Assembly: GCA_033439265.1 (NCBI GenBank)
Contig: JAVTVX010000004.1
Coordinates: forward strand, 21,403,701-21,467,700
DNA length: 64,000 nucleotides
DNA from: Dillenia suffruticosa
Lineage: Eukaryota > Streptophyta > Magnoliopsida > Dilleniales > Dilleniaceae
Direction of reading: 5' to 3'
Positions 11,034 to 59,910 of the stretch are shown here, in pieces (within the stretch, counting starts at the first letter, position 1; the number at the start of each line of letters is the position of its first letter). The position numbers and the translations under genes are program-made. The notes below the pieces were generated by a model. That model had not been told where the DNA came from, made no database searches, and saw only the letters and a program-made list of their open reading frames with translations.

Positions 11034-17856
<6,823 letters not shown>

Positions 17857-21183: not shown

Positions 21184-24100
21184 CTACTGCACCATCCCAT
21201 CTTTAACCAGTTCTTCTAATCCTTTTCTTAATCTCTCTGCAGCAACTTTACAGTCTTCCTCCTTCAACCCACCAAACGAGATCCTAATATAGCCCGGACC
21301 ACCACTTGAACTCCCAGGAATCACCACTATCCCATGTTTGTTAGCAAGCCAATTAACAACTTCAAAGTCATCGGGAAATTTGTCAGGCAGTTTTGCCCAC
21401 AAGTAGATTGCACCTTCACCTCCTTTTACCGCATTGTCACCAAGTGGAGAAAGTGCGTCTACAAGTAGTTCTCGGTTCCTAACAAGATCTTTTACTTGTT
21501 CTGTAACCCACTCAGGACCTGTTTCTAGAGAGTAGAGAGCAAGCCGTTGCGAAATTATAGCTGCACAAATTGGGATGTTATCTTGCACTTTTAGAAGCTG
21601 AGCACCAAGGCCTTCAACTTCTGATGGGTATGCTATCTGCAAGCATGAAAATAAATGGGACAATGCATGAAGCAGAGGCATACCTAGAATCAGAAGTGTT
21701 TCACTCAAAGTAATGAAGCAATTATATGTACCAACGCTCAACCACCTTAAGACTCCCAGCTGATTTATGTTTATGGCCAACTTTAATAGTAAAAGTAAAA
21801 TCATTCACAATATTGTTGGCATTGGTTAAATAAAGCTTTCAGAGAGAACCAATAGGAGATCATATTTATAGAGTATAACAAATGAAACAAGAAAAATAAA
21901 GAGTAAAAGTGATATAGATTACAGAATTTCTATTTGCAACTATCTCCTGGACAGATATTTCTAAGCCCCAGAGGGTTCAGATGCAAAATAAAGATCATGT
22001 TATATTACCCAAAGACGCACTAGTTCGGAGGAACGAAATCTTAAATGTAGAAGATCTAGTGAAATGTCGAGATAAATCGTTGAAAATCTGAATACAAGTT
22101 ATCCGTAAATATATAAGTGTCAAGAATTTAGTTGAAAAAATCTTTAGATAGAAACGAGTGACGTAAGAGAATCCAAACCAATTAAATTAATGTACTATTA
22201 TTATAATAGGTTCTATGGATAATTTATTTTTATTTTTTTAGTTTTATTTTCTCTATTTTTACTTTCAAACTCTAATTTTATGTTATGTTATGTTATTTTC
22301 TCTCTCCTCATCTCTCAAACAGTCTATCCCAAAATTTGAGATGATCCAAATTCTTTTTTGGTCCATCCCAATAAGCCCACCTGTTATATTTTTAGGTTAG
22401 AGTTTTGTTTTTGGCATATATATATATAGTGCCTATTAGGATTTGGGTGTTGGATATTCAGTTACCATTCATCTGACAACTCCTCTTGTACTCCTTTATT
22501 CTCATTTAGTGAATTCTTCTCCTCTGTTCGTGATTTTTCTCTGGTTTGGGGTTTTCCATGTAAACGTTTGTGTGATTTTCTCTTAGCTTATTTCCAACAG
22601 ATCAAATAGGAAAAAAAAATGTTTCAGAAAGTGATCTATTCTAGATGAAAACAAACCATTGAGGAAAGCCTGCATATTTTGTAGGCAGCTACAACATTAG
22701 GAACGAGTATTCACAACCTTATCTAAGGGGATTCCTGACATATATTTCTGGAAAACTGTACCAAGTTCACACAGAGGCAACCATTAACACCACTCCCCCC
22801 TCAAAGAAAAAAAAGAAAGATCAAGAAGGAAAAGTGGAATAAGCAATGAAATGACTTGTAAGCTACCATCACTAATCAAACTAGAATTTCAAGATTCATT
22901 AGGCAAAAGTCCTGTCTAACATGTGAAAAAACAAAGAAATTTCCTCCCCTTTGCACCTTTAACCGATCAAATCCTAAACAAGGAAAGTTTTGGAGAAACT
23001 TCAAAAACGAAAAAAAGAAAGGGAACAATATTCTGGTTGCCAACATCATGTTTAAACACCTTTTTTAGGACATTCTTATCTTCACCAAATAGGCTTTAAA
23101 TTGAAAACACCAAAATGATATGAAGTCTGAACATTAATACTCGGAGCTTGCAACTTGATCTAACAATCAAACATAAGGAAGGGAAGTTTTACTTACATAT
23201 CCAACTCGCCATCCCATCATCCCATACGCCTTTGAGAAGGAGAAAATGTTGACTATGTGATTGTCCTCCAAACATGAGTGTTTCCGACCGTCATACATAA
23301 AGTACCTGCAGTGTTGTGCCTTGAGACTCTTGCATGCTTCAAGAGTAATACCACAAGAAAATATATTTATGCAACAGACATTAGGAACAACCATCTCAAG
23401 ATGAAAAAATAGGGTAACTAGACAGTAGACCAGCTAGTTCAACCATTATTGTCGTGATCTTCAGATATAAGTCGAAAGCCAAGTTCAAAAATCACCACAG
23501 GGATTATGAGCCCCAGGTAAAAGATCTCTCTCTGCGTATTAATATAAGGAAGCAAAAAACCATTTCTTCTGCATCTTAAACATAGAGTGGAACTTACTTT
23601 AGAGCCAAAAAGGATAACATCAGTGGCAGAGCTAAAATGCTCCACCTGAGAAGTTCCTCATTTCCTCCTTCCTTCCAAATTGATCTCATACATCAGTCAG
23701 CTTTACAAAAATAGTTCATAAGGCTGGCTCTTGCAGTCTATGTTTTGACATAGGATACTAACCCCTTACCTGCCTCAGCATACTTTAAACATACATATTT
23801 AATTCACGTAGTTACACTTACCAAAGGTATCAACAAAATTGAGGGGGCTTTTCCATTAACTATCGGTTGTTCCAAAAGCTTAAAACTTTTGGAGCAGTTG
23901 TTATCTAACATGTTACCCAAGCAAGCAATTCTAAGTTCAAAACTTGCTATGCTACTTCGACTGCATCTGTTTTTTTTCACATGTTTGGGACACTCTTACA
24001 AAAGTCATTCCAAGCCTACATGTAAGGTGTAAGAAAATATAATATATATAACATAAACATATAGTTGTTTCACACTTTCTGAGGTTCATAGTGAGATTGA

Positions 24101-27100: not shown

Positions 27101-30100
27101 ATACTTGCAAAACAGGCTGAAGATACAGGTCCAGATATCCTTTGGCCACATTGGCAAGCATGAGAACATTTTCCAACTAATTAAAAGCTTAGCTATCACC
27201 TCAATTTCATTTACGATCACTTAATTGACTATTTAAACAAAGAAAGTTGAAATTTGTGGTTTTCAATTAAGCAGCAAACTATGTAATTCCACATGTAACG
27301 ACTACCTTTGTCTTTCACATTGTATAACATTTTGATCAAACACTAGCTACCAAATTCCAAAGCATGAATCTCCAGCATGGAAGTTTCTAAACCAGTTCAA
27401 ACATAATGATACCTTTTTAGTCAAAGCCTCTCTTAGTTCAGGAAGACCTTCATCAGCACCATAACGACTGACTGAAGGATCCACTACAAGGTTCTTGACC
27501 TTTTCCATAGCATGCCTGGGTGGCTGCCAATACACTACTCCCTGCACAAAAAATATCATCAACGAATGGTATCCATTTAACGCAACTATTTCATTATGTC
27601 CCAAAGAAGAACTTCAAGTTCATCTTCTCTAGAGATAAATTTCCATGTAATAGTGAGTGGTTTCTGATTAATTTCATAGTCACAGTTCAACAAAATAATA
27701 AATGCACGAACACAAAATGCAGCATCCAAAACAAAAATTCACAAGTCAAGCAAGACCCATGTGAGGACCAAAAGATTTTGCAATTAATGTGGCAATCTCT
27801 CAGAGCTAAGAAGAAGTTATGTTGCCCATCCTCCCGTAAAGATTTGCGTTAGCAGTCCACATTCCACTACAACACAAAAGCATATTGACGTCTATGTGCC
27901 ATCTTCTGCTGTAGCTTCACTTGTAATTAGAGATATGCCCAGGCCGGTTTGGGCCTGAAAACCAGCCCAGCAGGCCTAAAAAAACCCCGGCCCGTGAACA
28001 GGACCGGAGCTATAGTAACCGGGCCCGAACCGGGTACTGTAGGGGTCCGGGCCGGTTCAACCGATTTTGGAATCGGGAACCTGCCCGGCCATGGAACCGG
28101 CCCCGGCCCGAAACCGGCCCCGGCACGAAACTGGCCCGGAACCAGCCCAGCCCCAGCCGGTTCCAACGGCTCCTTGTCCCTCTTTTTTTTTTATTTTTTT
28201 CAATTTTTTTCAATTTTACCCTTCCCAACAGCTATTAAACGGCTAATTTTGAGGTTATTTTGGTCCATAAGGTCAAAAATTTTTCCAATAAATACCTTAT
28301 ACCCCATTTCCAAAATCTCCACAACAAATTATCTCTCTCTCACATCTACATTCTCTCAACATTACTACATTCTCTCAATTTTTATTATTATTTCCATTAT
28401 CATTTCCTTTTCACCATTTTTACAATTCTTTATACCATTTTCATTAATATTTTCTATACCATTTCCACTAATTTTTACACCATTTCCATTATCATTTCCA
28501 CTATTATCTTTATTTCTATAATTTTATTCATTAAACACATTCTCAAATTTGTACTCTAAACTTTTGTAAAACCTATTGACTCAGTATGCAATGGCATAAC
28601 ATGTCTAGGAAAGTTCTATCAACTAATTGTCGAAAGATAGAGGTACTTAAGAGAGAACAGACAAGCTCCATCTTTTACATGGAAACTTTCCTGGTGCACT
28701 TGTTACAGAACGGTCTGGGTGAAGAAGGGAAGATTACAAATTTTTTACGACCTTCAACATTGATCAAGATTCGGCAAGATTTCGAAATTGAGAGGTCAAA
28801 TTCAAGATTTTGCAAAAAACAACTGTGATATCCGTCAAGTCGGTACATTTAATTTTTTTGCATCTTTATTTTCTTGCATTTGCATTACTTTTAAAGAAAA
28901 AAAATTAAATCTTAAAATTTTTTTAAAAAATTTAATCTTAAATTTCCTTTTATAAAATTTAATCTTAAATTTTCTTTTAAAAATTTAATCGTATATTTTA
29001 TTTTGATAATTTATTCTTAATTTTTTAATAAAATGGCCGGAACACACTCTTCGCAATGTTCTCAACAATCTCCTCTTCCTCCATTTTTTTTTTCAAGATG
29101 AAATTTCCGATAATATAAATATTGAAACTCTCTTGGAAGAAACTAAACCTAGTTACACAAAATCTAACACAACACGGACTAAAAAAGATGATATTAATAT
29201 ATGGACATTTTTTGAAAAAAAAAATGATGAACAAAAGGCAATTTGTAAAATTTGTCAAAAAAAATATAAATTTTTAAAGGGTTGGGGGTAAGCACACTTA
29301 AGAGACACTTAGTTAATAATCATCCAGATAAATTATCACAAACAAGACAAACACAAATTGCTATAGGGGGAGGTAATATAACTGGTACATTTAAATATAA
29401 TTCGGATAAAAAAAAAATTGGACAAATAGAATGGTTAGTAAGAAAAGAATTACCACTTAACATAGTTGCATGTCCCGTATTTGAAAAATATGTACAAAAA
29501 TATTTACAACTCGATTATAAAAAAAGTAGTAAAAGTGGATTTTAAAAATCATTGTAAATAGAAAAAAAAAATCAAAGTGATGTAAAAATCAAAATAATGT
29601 AATAAAAAAAATTAGTAGATTTTAAAATCCAAGTGATGAACTTGGTAGTGGACGTACACCGAATTCGGTGGAACCACTCTAAAAATTGTGTCTCTAATTT
29701 TTAATTTATTTTTTTATAAAAAGTGAATTAAAAAAACAAAATAAAAAAAAATAAATCATTACAAGAGAGTAAAAAAAAACAAAGTTAAAAAAAAATGGAG
29801 TTACAAAAATAAAATAGAATTAAAAAATAGAGTTACAAAAAAATAGAGTTAAAAAAAGGCAGTAGAGAAAAAAAAAATTTCGGGCAGAACCGGGCCCGGC
29901 CCGGTGTGAACTGGCCCACCAGTTCTGGTTCAGCAGGCCGGGCCGGTTCAACTAAAAAAATTTTTTAACCGGCCTGGCCTGGCCCGGACTGGCCTAGGAA
30001 CTACAGCTAGCCCGGCCTGCAGTTCCGGGAACCGCCCTTGAACCGGACTGGGCCCAGCCCGGCCCGGTTACAACTCTACTTGTAATAATTATCACGCAAA

Positions 30101-35332: not shown

Positions 35333-37479
35333 GTTATCGTTATCGTTATGAAATAATTTAATGGTATCCAGCCCTAGTGCCAACCCAGAAAATATCTCTT
35401 ACATCTGCAAAATTTTGAGTATGAGCCCCATTTCATTACAGAGAAGTCTTGAATTATTAGCATTTTGTTAATGTTATAATAATATTAAATGAGTCACTGT
35501 AAGTTTTAAATCGAATTAATTAAAATATAATTCTAGATATCGATTGGTATAATATAAAAAAAAATCAACATGGGGTAAAATAAAAAACGAAGGGCCAAAA
35601 CGAAAAGAAAAAAAAAATAGGGACGATGCTTTAGGGGCGTCCGCAAAGAAAGGAATAGTGGCGGGTGAACGGCAGAGCCTTTGGCGCTTTATTTATAAGG
35701 TAAATACCATCGCATTAAATGAGTTGACATTTGTTTGTTTCATTTGAAAAATATTTTAATTAAATTACAACCACTTAGAATCTCCAAAATTTTAACTTTT
35801 ACAAATATAAATCGGTGCATAAGATTTGACTTATAGAACATCAAATCATGTAAAGAGAAGAGGGTATTAGAATCGATGACGGTTGGAGATATTAAATTTT
35901 TTAATTAAATCTTGAATTTAAAATTTGAGAATAAAAAAAAATTATACTGAAAGAACTGTTTCCTAAATAGGGTCTCAAAAATACTCAAATTAGATTAATT
36001 GAAATATAATTTTGAATACCGATGATGAAAAAAAAAGTGTATTAAAACAAATTTTTAGATACAATAATGTTATTTTGTCCACGTAATAATTTTGCAGGGT
36101 TTGATTTCAACGAGCAGGAGTTTTGTTCAATAACGTTTCCATTATTTATCATGTAAAAATTATTTTGTACAAGTTATAATTCATTAAACATTATAATAAC
36201 CTTATTTTTTTCATAATGTTAAGATAAATAATTGAAAATATTATTATGATATAATAATTTTAATATGTTATGAAAATATTTGATTTATATTTACTGAATT
36301 TTATATTTTCAACTAAAAGGTTTCACTTTATTAGAATATATTATTCTTAAACCAATATCACTTTGTGTAGTTGTGCGTATTATTATGTTTAATACAAAAA
36401 ATAAATTTAATTTATGATATCGATATTTATAGATAAACTAGATTTCCAAATAATTTACTTAAATAAATTTTTAATATATATCTAACTAAATAAATCAACT
36501 TAAAAGGTAAACAATTTTATCTTTATCCTCTTATTTTGTAAATATTTTTCAAGTTTAATTTATTATGTCAACTGACTATCGGTCTGAGAAAGGTATGATA
36601 CATGTGCTTCTTCGGCTTCCTTTAACGAAAGAGGCTCACCAACATTTTTTTTATGTATACATGGATTGCTTGTCACCAACCGAATTTTATATTTCGTCCG
36701 ACTAATTCAACCCGAGCATTATAGGACCCTTCGTGAAGGAATTGATTTTTTTTTTATTCTATTTTTTTATTCTTATGACTGAAATCTAAAAATCAAACAA
36801 TTACAATATCCAATCGTTTAACCCATAAGAATTTAGTGAGACCCACCACCATTATCCATTATACATACAACAATCAACATAAGAGATCTACCAGAGGTCT
36901 ACCAGAGGCCTTTGACCCCTTTACAAAAGTTAAGGTTGGACTGTCTTTGTAGGGATATTCAAGTAATTAAAAATTCATACTCAAATATTTTTTATGAGAT
37001 AAAGATTTAAAATTTAAATTTTCGTAAATAGTATATTTTGGTGATTATTACGATTATATAATAAAAAAATTGAGATTAAACTTTGTTCAAATTAAGATAA
37101 GAATTTTCTAATAATACCGAAATTCTTAGTTTGTTTAGCATGAGAGATTGAGTCTCTCCTGTGATTCTTCACGGATTGAGGTCGGTTCAATTGATAGGTC
37201 ATTTTTGGATGCCAACTCCTCGACAGATGGGAGGACTCTCTGGCAATTAACCCCGAGACACTTTTCCGAACTATATGTTCTCGGCCAGCTAAAAAACTCC
37301 AAATTAATGATGATAATCTTAAAAGAAAATAGACGATCGTCGATCTCAAATCATGAGAAATAATTTTTTATACGAAAGCACTGGGTAATAATTGTGATTT
37401 ATTTTATTCTATTTTTGAATAAATACTATAATAATTACTGTATTTTATTGTCATTGATATAATAAGAATAATGAAGGAG

Positions 37480-38690
37480 ATTTTTAAAGGAAAGAAAGAA
37501 GGGAGAAGCCAAATTTGAAAATACTTGAAGATATTCCAAATATTTGCGAATTTAAATTTTGAAGAATTCCAATTTTTATAATCTTCTATTTTAGTTAGCT
37601 TATCTAATTGATAAGTTAGTTAGGTTACTTCTCATTAATTTTTTCTTTATTTGATAGTTGTTAAAAATTTAGAAAGACCTTCTCTTTAAAAATTAGGTTA
37701 ACTCACATCTATATATATATATACGAGACATTACGTATAGGAGGAGAGAGCCTAGAGGGGGCAGCCGCCCCTTCACTGTTTTTCCAATAGAAACACATTA
37801 TTTTTTGTAGTTTAGGTTTTGTCTTTTTGGGTGCTTCAAGTTCCAGCCAGCTGCTCTTTTGCAAGAAAAGTATGGTTGCCATTTTGTTTTTTTCTTCCAT
37901 TGCTCTTCAACTTCAATATTGAATAAAATTTTGTGAGTTTTCTTTTTTCTATATTTTCTTTTTAATTTTATTTTTCTAGTCGAAAGTTTATTAAAATCTT
38001 GATTTTTAATGGTTGTGAGATCTAATTGAACATATTAATTCAATATATTATAGATATTTATTTAATTTCTATGTTTCATGGATCATGATTTTCTAGAGTT
38101 TATTGAATAAGAGTCCATATTTAATAGTTCTAAAATAATACACAACTAAATAAAACTGTAAATCCGTAATTATTTATTAGTTTTAATAAAGTGGTGAATG
38201 ACATTTATATCATGAAATTGAATAATCTAATTTAAATGAATTCGTCGTATGTTTGTTAATTAAAAGTAGATTTCTCTAAATCTTAATACTGTTGAGACTT
38301 TAAATCTTAAGATTTTCTCTAACGTTGACTCTCGATTAAGAAAATAATTAACGAATTTCTCTTAATTATCGACAAAATAAGAAGAGATTAGTTATTAGGC
38401 GTTTGTCAATAACTATAACCAATTTATCTATAGTTATTGAAATCTTTAGGTAGGTCGATGATCAATCGAATGAAATCAAGATGATATAATTTCTTTAGTT
38501 AGATTTTATTCTTATTGATATTTTCTCTTTTAGTAAGTATTATTTAATTGTCTTGTTTTAATTGATTTTGTTGATTTATTTTATTAGTTTAATTTAACTC
38601 AAACTCTCATATTTTTGTTTTATTTTTATTTTTCTTAAAAGAGATAAATCTATCATTTTGGATCGGTCCTATATTCTAAACTTGTCTTTT
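37480..38690. repeat. Dispersed ~1-kb repeat, copy A (possible degenerate solo LTR)
   Basis: It aligns with 58590-59710 through a series of shared blocks: TCTTCTATTTTAGTTAG, TTATTGAATA, TTTTAATAAAGTGGT, AATAATCTAATTTAAAT, ATCAATCAAT-like and ATATAATTTCTTT, all in the same order and orientation. A TATATATATATA run and a TTGAATAAAATTTTGTGAG block resemble LTR promoter and polyadenylation signals. No coding domain is seen. Its right end nearly touches the ERF pseudogene stop codon. Confidence 0.6.
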
Positions 38691-38714
38691 ATGAAGTAGA
38701 TATTTTATTTTTGA

Positions 38715-39323
38715 TCATTTTACAATACACCATACACCATCCTCGCTATGGATCCCACCATCATTTTCTACTTCTTTGACCCGTTCCCCCGCAACCGTCT
38801 CTTTCACTCTTCTCTCTCTTCTCAAATCTGGCTTGTATGCATCATCAAACAACCGGGCATCTTGGATTTTCATAGAATTTGAAGTCACGCTACCGTTGCA
38901 AGCACTGATGCTGCTGCTTGCTGAAGAAACAGATTTGCTGTTTTCAGAGGAAATAGAGTCCTCTGTTTTGCACTGTTGTTTCGCTCCTTTTTTCTTGTTG
39001 AGGAGACCCTGTATCCGAGTAGCGAGCGGAGAATTGGGAGAGACGTGTGTGATGAAGTTGGTTCTTGTCTTAGAACCGCGAAGATGACAAGCGGCTTCAT
39101 CGTAGGCGTGAGCGGCTTCTTCTGCAGTCTCAAATGTTCCAAGCCACATCCTAATCTTGTGTGTTGTGTCCTTGATTTCCGCTACCCATCTCCCCGAAGG
39201 TCTCTACCTCACACCCACAAATTTGTTATTGTTATTACTTCGGTTTCTGCCTTTGAATTTACTCATTTTGGTAACAGGGCTCACTCTTGTGCTCTGTTTT
39301 TGTTGTTGGAAATGAATTTCCAT
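38715..39323 (-). pseudogene. ERN1: AP2/ERF transcription factor, ERN1/RAP2.11-like, with in-frame TAG
   Basis: A single minus-strand exon of 203 codons starts MEIHFQQQKQ, a start I recall for ERN1-type factors. The AP2 domain opens KFVGVR, then an in-frame TAG stands at codon 40 (39204-39206) where the family has glutamine. The frame then stays open through [40 protein letters not shown] and [10 protein letters not shown] to a TGA at 38715-38717. Several other near-invariant positions differ (TTH for TTQ, AAH for AAR, CHL for CLL, SKT for SNT). After DDAYKPDL the C-terminus looks unlike the family and is short. Intact members bind GCC-like boxes and act in symbiotic or nutrient signalling. 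As read it would give a 39-residue peptide. A sequencing or base-call error at one position remains possible. Confidence 0.8.
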
Positions 39324-43455: not shown

Positions 43456-43492
43456 GATTATTAAGCATTGTGTTGTGTGCTGAGTTGTAAAG

Positions 43493-46400
43493 ATGAATAA
43501 AGAAAATTTTATTCGTGTTGGGGTAACAGAGCCAAGTGGCTGCATTACACGTGCTCGAGCTGCGGCCTTACATGCATGTACAAGTACACATCCTTCAAAA
43601 TTCCCCACAAAACTGGTTCAGAAACGGATTTCGAAAAGTGCAGTGTTGGATGAGAGTAGTGCTAAAGCTTCAGCTATTGATTGTCATCAAAACAAGAGAA
43701 GGGCTGTATTGAAGAATATTGCTAATGTTTGTTGTGAACATTCCCACATAAATTGTTTAAATGCAAGTAAAGTTGAGGTCAAGGCAAGTGACACTCACGT
43801 TTGTTGACTTTCCTACTTTACATGTATGTTTTTCTGCTTGTATATAGTATTTAGGAATTTCTGGTTGTTACATTTTGTGGAAATGGGATGGTGTTGGTCA
43901 AGCCAATACTGCATTCATTATCGAATTCCTAATTTGGTTGCATGTATGCTCATAAATGTTGCTAATGGATGTTTTGATTAAATCAAAATACAAGGCTGAG
44001 TCTAAAAGATCCTTTCTTTCCCTCCCAAGTCTAGGTGGTCTTGCTTTGCTCCCCCAAGTTTAGTTTCAAATCAAGAAAAATATTTAAAGTTATTTGGATT
44101 TCAGGTTTTGGTTTGTCTAATAAAACACAATCCAAAATGTGTGATTTTGGGAACAGTATAGTACTTTTATGCCTTTTTTTTTTGGTTGGGTAAGCCATAG
44201 AAGGAAACTAGAGCATCACCACTTTTAAATGTATGGTTCCTTGCTAAAACCACATCAAAAGGATTTTTGTTTTGTTTGAGAATCTGAAATTTGTCCTGTC
44301 AAACTTGTCAGAAGAAGAACAAGCAGGCCAGAAAAGCCTCATCGGAACTTCTTATTTCAAAGAAAAATATGGCTCAAGCATCCAAAGAAGAAGAAATTTC
44401 ATCTGAAAAACAAATGTCCCTAATAAAGGTGAAAGAATACCGAGATGGCTTCATGGAAGCTCAGTTGGAAAAGCAGAGTTCCAGCCATGCATTTATGCTC
44501 TTTAGCTCTTCAACAAAAGGTGTGCATTCTTTTCCGATGTCTAAACTGTGATCGTGCTCATAATTATTATTATGGTGCTCTTTTAACATTTTTGTGTCCA
44601 AGTTGTTTACCATTTGCTGATGCCCCACTTCTATTGGAACTGAAAGTAACATAGGAATATTTACTGGTGGAGAAAAATTCCTGTTCCTGTATATATGATG
44701 GCTAGGCATGCTTTAAACAAAAATTGCAATAATGTAGATGATTAAAAAATTATATGTGAAAACTTAAGGCGTATGGCTGCTGTTGTCTTTCTAGAGCTGG
44801 AGATAACAGAAGATTTATTGGTGTTCAAGAGATAACAATCAGTCATAGAAATATTTTAACAGGATATGAGCAACATCGAACCTTAGATGACGCCATAGTG
44901 CTTTGCATATTTTCTCAAGTTCCTTGTAGCAGCAACTGGCCGTGCAATATAAGATTTATTGACATATGTCAAAAGGTTCATTGTTGTAAAACTGGAACAA
45001 TGAGATTGCCTTCTTTGTCATTAATGATTATGTTCAGTTACCATTAATACAAGCCTTTTCACATAGCAAGGATTGCAGGTCAGACAAAGATACTGATGGA
45101 AGTTAGAGTCAGTTCTTGTAGTACATGTTTTAGCAAAAGCAGCAGGGATCATCCTTTGTCGGTGATCCTTTTTCTTTTTCCTTTTAATTCAAAAGCCTGC
45201 AGTCTAAGGTTTGACATTTTTTTCCCAATTGGACACAGCTGAGAGAAACATCCTGCACAAGAGCCTTGGGTCCTCAGATGAACCAGATGTTATTGACATT
45301 GATTCTGAACAGAAGGATCCGCTGTTGTGCAGCCTCTATGCCGCTGATATCTATGGCTATCTGCGAGTTGCTGAGGTATGTGCTAAGATCCTTAGACATT
45401 ACCCTTTATTTGAAACAACACCAGTATTGCTTTCTTTTGCAGTTATGATCACACTTTGCTACAGCTCACAAGCAGATCCTCTTCAAGTTTTATGGAAATG
45501 GTGCAGCGAGATATCACACAGAGCATGCGGGCAATTTTGATTGATTGGCTTGTGGAGGTTAGTAAGCCTAATTACACTAGAAACTTGTCTTTGCACAATG
45601 ACTGCGTGCTGTTATATTTATTTATCCATGATTAGGTCAACATTACTTAACTTCTGATGTTGGCCTATCTCCTTAACTACAAGACATAATCCTGGATGTG
45701 CATGGTAAGCTTGGTAATACATTCAAGATTCTATACTAAAGACATGTATCCAAGGTTGTCCTTAGCATGTGCTTGGGAATATTTGCGTTTTTCAATCACT
45801 AATCAAGGCTAAAAATTGAAAAAAAAAAAAAATCTTACAGGTGTCTTGATACTTGCCATAGTTTTTACTACGTGCCATATTTAAACCAAAATTTACATCT
45901 CATCAACCTTTGGAGTGCTTAATTATTTTGGGAAATCTCTATTCTTTTACTTTTCATTTCATATCCTGCAGCCTGTCCTTGGACCGCCCTAATTTGAATG
46001 TAGTTGAATGTAGCAAGTTCTACTTTGACTAAGAGTTCAGCATCTAACCTCCATAAGGCTCTTAATTCTATAAGAGCTGGTGCTGATATGTTGTAACTGT
46101 GTAATGATAAATCTTATTAAACTATGTCACAAGCTGTAAGTTGTCCATTGTTTTTGGTTGACTTCTTGTGTGCTTTCAGATTTCCTTCAGAAAGTTTTCA
46201 CTGCACTCACAAAATTTTCTGTAAATCTCTAATGAGTAGTGCCGTGTTTTTACTTAAGTGAGTGAGCAAATTGAACATTTTTTGGTCTAAGCAAAATATA
46301 TTTCCATTTTTATAGAATTTGGACACATAACATGAGTTGAATATCTTTGAGTTGAATGTCTTCTGATTATCACACTTCACACTCATGTGAAGCAATTATC

Positions 46401-50285: not shown

Positions 50286-50309
50286 AATCTCTCTGTTCTC
50301 TCTCAAACC

Positions 50310-50590
50310 CATCTCTTCTCTCTTTCCCCCATCACCTCCCATCCCACCTCTCCATTAGCAAATCCGTTGTCATCTCCATTTCCGTCACAGTCTCAGGTTG
50401 CTACGACGATTCCATCAAGATCTACGACCTTTCTATCACGTTCAAAATCAGAACTCTAAATTACCCTTCTGGCTCAATCACTTCCCTCTCTTTTTTCTCC
50501 TCTCCCTCTCTCTCCATCCCCTGGAACCTCTCTTCTGCATCCGACGATGGCGCTTTACATCCCTTCGCTCTCCGGAACCAACTTTTGTAA
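50310..50590 (+). pseudogene. WD40-repeat gene fragment (PAK1IP1/MAK11-like)
   Basis: One frame reads HLPSHLSISKSVV, then VSGCYDDSIKIYDLS, SGSITSLSFFSSPSLSIPWN and SSASDDGALHPFALR before a TAA. This matches the first WD repeats of plant p21-activated kinase-interacting protein 1-like proteins, nucleolar WD40 factors of ribosome biogenesis, as I recall them. There is no start codon in context, no further repeats, and the last part departs from the family. It is best read as a captured or degraded fragment, intron-free over this span. Confidence 0.6.
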
Positions 50591-58019: not shown

Positions 58020-58454
58020 ATGTAAAATTTTTAAATGTGTAAGGATGAAATGGTAATTTTCTATTCTGGGTTAGAATATAAATACTAAAAAGATAAAAAA
58101 ATGATTTTGAAATTACTAATAGTCATCTTTAAAGGGTTGTATCACAAAACTTACTCCCCCATCACTGAGAGAGAGAGAGAGATCAAGGAATATGTACTAA
58201 TATGAAAGATTAAACCTAGAATCTACAAAGACAACCCGCTTCAATGGAATCGATGATAGGAGTTAAATGAATGTAATATTTATAATTGATTTTACTTTAT
58301 TTTTTAATAAATATTACGCTAATATTTATATTTTTTGATATTTGATATGTTAGAATTAATGAAAGATGCTTATGAAAGAAAGTGGAGAAAAATAAAGCAA
58401 TTCGAAGGATTATGCAAAAAATAAAAAAATTAGACAGTAATTTTCTTTCATTAA

Positions 58455-58510
58455 CACGTGAGCACGTGGATCTTAGGAAATACACATGAGCACGTGGATC
58501 TTAGGAAATA
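58455..58510. repeat. 24-bp direct duplication carrying G-boxes
   Basis: TGAGCACGTGGATCTTAGGA plus four more bases occurs at 58459-58482 and again, identically, at 58487-58510. CACGTG appears three times (58455, 58463 and 58491). Confidence 0.8.
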
Positions 58511-58589
58511 ATGCAAGATTTTATTGAACAATCACAACAGCAAGTTTCCTTTCTAATGGCACAAAATTCAAAAAAGGAAAAAGCCTAAA

Positions 58590-59710
58590 TTGAAAACTTG
58601 GAAACATAGGAGACTTTAAAGATATTATTTTATTCATAATATTTAAGAATATAAATATTAAAAAATCTAATTTTGTGATCTTCTATTTTAGTTAGACTAT
58701 TTTTTTGACAAGTCAATTAGGTTATTTGTCATTAGAAACTTCCTTTTTATATTTTTAGTAGTTGTTTGAGATCCATAACGAATATCTCTGAAACTCGTTT
58801 ATATAAATGGGAGGCAATATATAGTTCACGTCGAAGCAAAGGGGGCCACGACTCTTGTGGTTTCCAAGCACATTATTCTCTAGTAGCAGGGCACATTCCC
58901 ATAGGACGTTATTTTCAACAAACTTTGTCAACAACATTTATTTAATTCAAGCAATATTATTTATTTTGTGAGATCTATTTCTCCATATTTTTTCTTTAAA
59001 TTTATCTTCTAGTCAAAAGGTGATTGAACTCTTTACGAATGAAAATTATGAAATCTAATTGAGATATTGACTCAATATTTTATAAGTATTTATTTAATTT
59101 TTTTAATATTTATGATTGTTTTGGCTTTATTGAATAGAAACCTATATTTGATAACTTTAAAATAGTTTATAACTAATTAAAAACGACAAAATTTGTTTAC
59201 TTTTAATAAAGTGGTAATTAGCATGATTTTGATTTCACAAACGGTTAACTTATATCATGAGATTAAATAATCTAATTTAAATAAATCCCGATTGAAATTT
59301 ATTAATTAGAATTGAGTATCTTTAGATCTTATGGCTGTCAAAATACTAAATCCAACGAGAGTTTTTTGGATTGTCTTTCGATTAGAAAAATAATTAATGA
59401 TGATATTTTAATTATCAAAAAAATAATGAGAGATTGATCGCTTCGTAGTATTTAACGGTTATAACTAATTTATTTACATAATGTTGAGTAATTTTTGTAT
59501 CAATGATCAATCAAATATATCAGGGTGAATATAATTTCTTTGACTAGAAATTGAATTTCCATTCTTTTAGTTTTAACTTATTTATTTTTAGTCATTTATT
59601 TTCTTAATTTATAAGTTCAGTTAATCTTTAATCCCCATATTTTATTTTTAATTTCATAAATTTGTGAGAATACGATCCTATTTATCCTAATTTCATCTTT
59701 TGTGAAATGT
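58590..59710. repeat. Dispersed ~1-kb repeat, copy B
   Basis: It aligns in the same orientation with 37480-38690. Shared blocks include ATCTTCTATTTTAGTTAG, TATATAAATGG-like, TTTTAATAAAGTGGT, AAATAATCTAATTTAAAT and GAATATAATTTCTTTGACTA. The downstream GAGAATACGATCCTATTTAT block recalls sequences near Ty3-type LTR ends, but no internal retrotransposon domain is present. Confidence 0.6.
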
Positions 59711-59910
59711 CTTTTTCTTTTCGTTGGTTTGACACCCAGTAGTCAAGTACGTTATTTATTTATTTCATTAAATTAGGTTTTATCAACGTTCCAAAGGTAA
59801 TATGTGGTTACATGTTCCCATCAGGATTTATATGGCATGGATAAATATAAAGCAAAAGTCTCAGGCTAGAAAAGGGATACACATGAGGCAACGCCTATTG
59901 TTAGCGAGAT

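Follow-up and report, generated by a model that had tools for sequence, protein, structure and literature searches.

ERN1 (ERF Required for Nodulation 1) belongs to group V (Vb) of the ERF factors and is represented by MtERF058/Medtr7g085810, LjERN1 and AhERN1. Medicago and Lotus need ERN1 for their infection threads. Infection in both depends on this gene (PMC13125057, PMC9888413). MtERN1, 259 aa long, has 0 introns in a table that gives one intron to each of seven other Medicago group V genes; the MtERN2 locus stands outside that table (PMC4717309). For AhERN1 the published length is 272 aa. PMC6405277 names orthologues of MtERN1 for two non-legumes, Moringa and Sclerocarya, and orthologues of MtERN2 for neither. 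Because of these orthologues ERN1-type genes are not bound to nodulation alone; such genes can be kept, and presumably also be lost, with nodulation playing no part.

The window, as we call the whole 64-kb stretch of DNA that was analysed, contains on its minus strand an ERN1-like ERF frame of 166 codons with one internal stop (38826..39323), recognised by translation, by the Pfam AP2 profile and by alignment to a RAP2.11 sequence. The frame starts with the ATG at 39323, reads MEIHFQQQ...KFVGVR and then meets TAG (39204..39206, minus strand) as codon 40, a placement that follows from the translation and from an alignment to AtERF96; the last ERN-like residues, AYKPD, lie at 38826. An earlier note on this DNA had reported an in-frame TAG inside the AP2 domain of an ERN1-like gene, in a frame open on both sides, and this was confirmed: the TAG at 39206-39204 is in frame with ATG 39323, and of the two open segments one spans 39323-39207 and the other extends from 39203 as far as the TGA at 38717-38715. 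Behind the TAG, 162 codons follow without a stop; 144 of them are opened by the next in-frame ATG (39147..39149, minus strand; residue 59 in the translation and the AtERF96 alignment). Apart from this stop, which interrupts the reading frame within the AP2 domain, a single exon extends without a gap from ATG 39323 across the domain. This agrees with ERN1, since MtERN1 is listed with 0 introns. For the same reason we discarded a retrocopy deduced from the missing introns, as MtERN1 is intron-less too. No second ERN copy was found within the window, and Rfam and tRNA scans gave no matches.

The AP2 domain is otherwise well recognisable, as the earlier note had also stated. When the stop was written as X, the Pfam AP2 profile (PF00847) matched residues 34-83 over profile positions 2-53 of 54 with 53.7 bits (E 2.6e-14), the curated cutoff being 33.3 bits, and the segment behind the TAG alone reached 43.3 bits. 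A comparison with PDB gave five distinct AP2-domain sequences (AtERF96, AtERF1 twice, WRI1 and TEM1) at E 5.9e-11 or better; the sixth row, at E 1.1, is an unrelated protein. The AP2 domain match is far above chance.

For the assignment within the ERF factors we used the Arabidopsis protein RAP2.11, in a sequence not taken from a database record. Aligned with 39224-38826, this sequence is 53% identical over 134 columns and has a glutamine opposite the stop. In the AP2 stretch the same residue stands at 51 of the 57 codons, a likeness that places the gene, by this sequence, with the RAP2.11/ERN subgroup; the six differences are the stop, one K/R exchange and four missense changes (TTH, AAH, CHL, SKT). 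We take the segment behind the domain (FITHVS..SPLA) to resemble ERN1 more than RAP2.11, and the C-terminal motif of RAP2.11 was not found in the window. With ERN1 it shares the AP2 domain, a short N-terminal part and the lack of an intron before or in the domain. Unlike ERN1, it has a stop at codon 40, a dissimilar tail past codon 166 and at most 202 residues versus 259 in MtERN1 and 272 in AhERN1. From its sequence the gene appears to be an ERN1-like group V ERF and is likely to be ERN1. In tblastn searches, 24 viral contigs held relatives, whose best segments were 42-62% identical; in the prokaryote collection there was one bacterial contig (44% identity); the plasmid collection held no relative. 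ERN peptide strings gave no match in a text search of the literature.

What the stop would mean for DNA binding can be read from AtERF96, whose contacts to DNA are made by the AP2 residues R16, R19, R21, R31, R39, W23 and W41, as given in PMC7593309. In the alignment to the PDB sequence the TAG takes the position of R20, flanked by the equivalents of the DNA-contacting R19 and R21, and behind it come the counterparts of R21, R31 (a lysine in this gene), R39 and W41. Where AtERF96 has R16 and W23, the ERN1-like protein has valine and serine. Translation from ATG 39323 would end at codon 40, in the first AP2 strand, and yield 39 residues without a DNA-binding domain. The downstream ATG 39149 immediately precedes the W41 equivalent and is situated beyond the first two AP2 strands and most of the contact residues. 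A DNA-binding product is consequently not expected, because the TAG splits the contact arginines and ATG 39149 follows most of the contacts. The null allele that the earlier note had named as one possibility is supported, for the ERN1-like gene in this copy, by the translation and the AP2 alignments. The bases directly 3' of the TAG are AGACCT. To our knowledge this sequence matches no read-through signal. We also considered splicing around the TAG and rejected it, as MtERN1 has no intron and an intron of usual length would remove AP2 strands.

A second probable lesion, missed in the earlier note, is found at the C-terminal end. The ERN-like sequence stops at 38826 (residue 166) and is followed by a tail of 36 codons (38718..38825, minus strand) which is unlike RAP2.11 in the alignment and is closed by the TGA at 38717-38715. 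Read through, the frame would give 202 residues, of which roughly 166 are ERN-like. With the RAP2.11 C-terminus as query no C-terminal activation region was detected: only chance-level matches were obtained in the window, the best of them (E 0.34) inside the katanin gene described below. The C-terminal activation region thus seems to be absent, as judged from this RAP2.11 sequence and the published lengths of two legume proteins.

Close to the 3' end of the frame lies one copy of an AT-rich dispersed repeat (37302..38724), about 100 bp from the last ERN-like codon. Local alignment located the other copy at 58354..59734 in the same orientation. The two copies are diverged, the core (37928-38629 versus 58963-59657) being 66.3% identical over 739 columns in blastn (E 8.5e-44). 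This repeat may have caused the loss of the C-terminus. In addition, 58 bp of the tail recur inverted at 40934-40879 with 78% identity. The match carries little weight: of 200 random 116-bp pieces of the window, 26 show a second match of equal strength, and after this control the repeated tail piece was marked down as a sign of inserted DNA.

The earlier note had further argued that the changes TTH, AAH, CHL and SKT affect normally fixed positions and point to relaxed constraint. As far as is known, only the RAP2.11/ERN subgroup keeps these four positions fixed; in other AP2 domains they vary. In the PDB alignments the histidine of TTH faces histidine in AtERF96 and TEM1, that of AAH faces histidine in the first repeat of WRI1, and the lysine of SKT faces arginine in AtERF1; at the third changed position (CHL) the displayed alignments have polar or charged residues. 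For this reason we did not accept the four missense changes as a strong sign of decay, and as the same positions vary in solved AP2 domains relaxed constraint is weakly supported by them. The missense argument carries little weight because of this variation in AP2 domains at large; the case for decay is carried by the stop and the missing C-terminus.

The possible age of the decay was assessed by a simulation of neutral drift, starting from the present codons minus the stop, with 1000 runs per distance, assuming transitions to transversions of 2:1 and indels at 1/8 of substitutions. At 0.005, 0.02, 0.03, 0.05 and 0.08 substitutions per site, the fraction of runs that had no indel and not more than one stop was 0.734, 0.28, 0.133, 0.037 and 0.003, respectively. 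Over 165 codons the mean number of missense changes was 6.7 at 0.02, 10.1 at 0.03 and 16.0 at 0.05 substitutions per site, and the four missense changes in 57 codons fit a simulated distance of about 0.03-0.04. At this distance one stop without an indel would, under the model, be fairly usual. If the ERN1-like frame is neutral, it has been so only for a short time.

The surroundings of the gene were inspected as well. At 11037-17856 on the minus strand lies a katanin p60 (KTN1-like) gene; it was found by tblastn with a KTN1 sequence and shows AAA, lid, Vps4_C and MIT in Pfam. Its seven tblastn pieces (17856-11037) cover residues 1-523 except residue 200 and none of the seven contains a stop. 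It lies 21-28 kb from the ERN1-like frame. Between its exons there is a direct repeat of about 0.5 kb (12632-13157 and 13994-14466, 72.6% identical). The minus strand further holds a class I/II aminotransferase piece at 21187-21804 (PF00155, 44 bits). Cyclin-A-like pieces were recognised by eye on the plus strand at 43484-43804 and 45208-45537; Pfam gave no hit for them with an E-value of 0.01 or below. We take the order katanin, aminotransferase, cyclin A to resemble that of Arabidopsis At1g80350-At1g80370. A BED zinc finger at 29010-29288 (plus strand; 21.3 bits versus a cutoff of 20.6) is likely to derive from a hAT-type element, and a WD40 stretch at 50288-50587 (plus strand), BUB3-like by eye, stays below its cutoff (21.9 versus 27 bits). 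The genes suggest that the window is plant DNA.

Taken together, we consider it fairly probable that the locus is an intron-less copy of an ERN1-like group V ERF gene that has become a pseudogene, probably a young one. The stop at codon 40 would truncate the product before the DNA-binding domain is completed. The C-terminal activation region would be lost as well, either through a deletion or because a rearrangement placed repeat-rich DNA near codon 166, and a working protein would not be produced from this copy. Against a pseudogene it can be held that only one stop among 166 codons, and agreement with RAP2.11 at 51 of 57 AP2 positions, would equally be expected of an intact gene with one wrong base or of a null allele that arose very recently. 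If the stop were an error of sequencing or assembly, it would be absent from the plant and the gene would be intact with a diverged, short C-terminus; one stop only, no frameshift and an otherwise well-kept AP2 domain are what such an error would leave. The neighbouring katanin gene, free of stops in all seven pieces, argues against a poor assembly, and the C-terminal region was apparently lost independently of the stop, so that we regard an error as unlikely. The argument of the earlier note against a base-call error is borne out insofar as an error has become less likely as the whole explanation; a single wrong base keeps a low probability.

The young appearance of the decay in the simulation would also suit a null allele that segregates, with a working gene at the same locus in other individuals. 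To this the apparent loss of the C-terminus is opposed, as it suggests more than one step, and we give this alternative a low probability. Finally, a truncated product might still be used, either the 39-residue head or the 144-residue protein from ATG 39149, for instance as an interfering small protein. The long open frame behind the TAG with its ATG would permit the latter, but neither form has the full AP2 domain or the ERN C-terminus, which makes such a use extremely improbable. The young pseudogene is hence the explanation that we prefer.

As such, the locus resembles the cases in PMC7397163 and PMC9055685, in which a gene of the nodulation programme has decayed. Loss of a symbiosis function, another reading offered in the earlier note, is a hypothesis here. 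In the literature consulted no report of an ERN1 pseudogene was found, which is no proof of absence. One dead gene copy is an ordinary event of a known kind; it would be of interest only if it were the sole ERN1 in a plant of the nodulating clade. That the plant belongs to this clade, has no other ERN1 and carries the lesions in fixed form, so that ERN1 would join NIN and RPG as a marker of decay, we consider very unlikely. If it were true, ERN1 decay would mark the loss, or the bypass, of intracellular infection by nodule bacteria. A fixed null without a second copy would mean that the plant can dispense with ERN1, and would be an aid in dating when an infection programme was lost.
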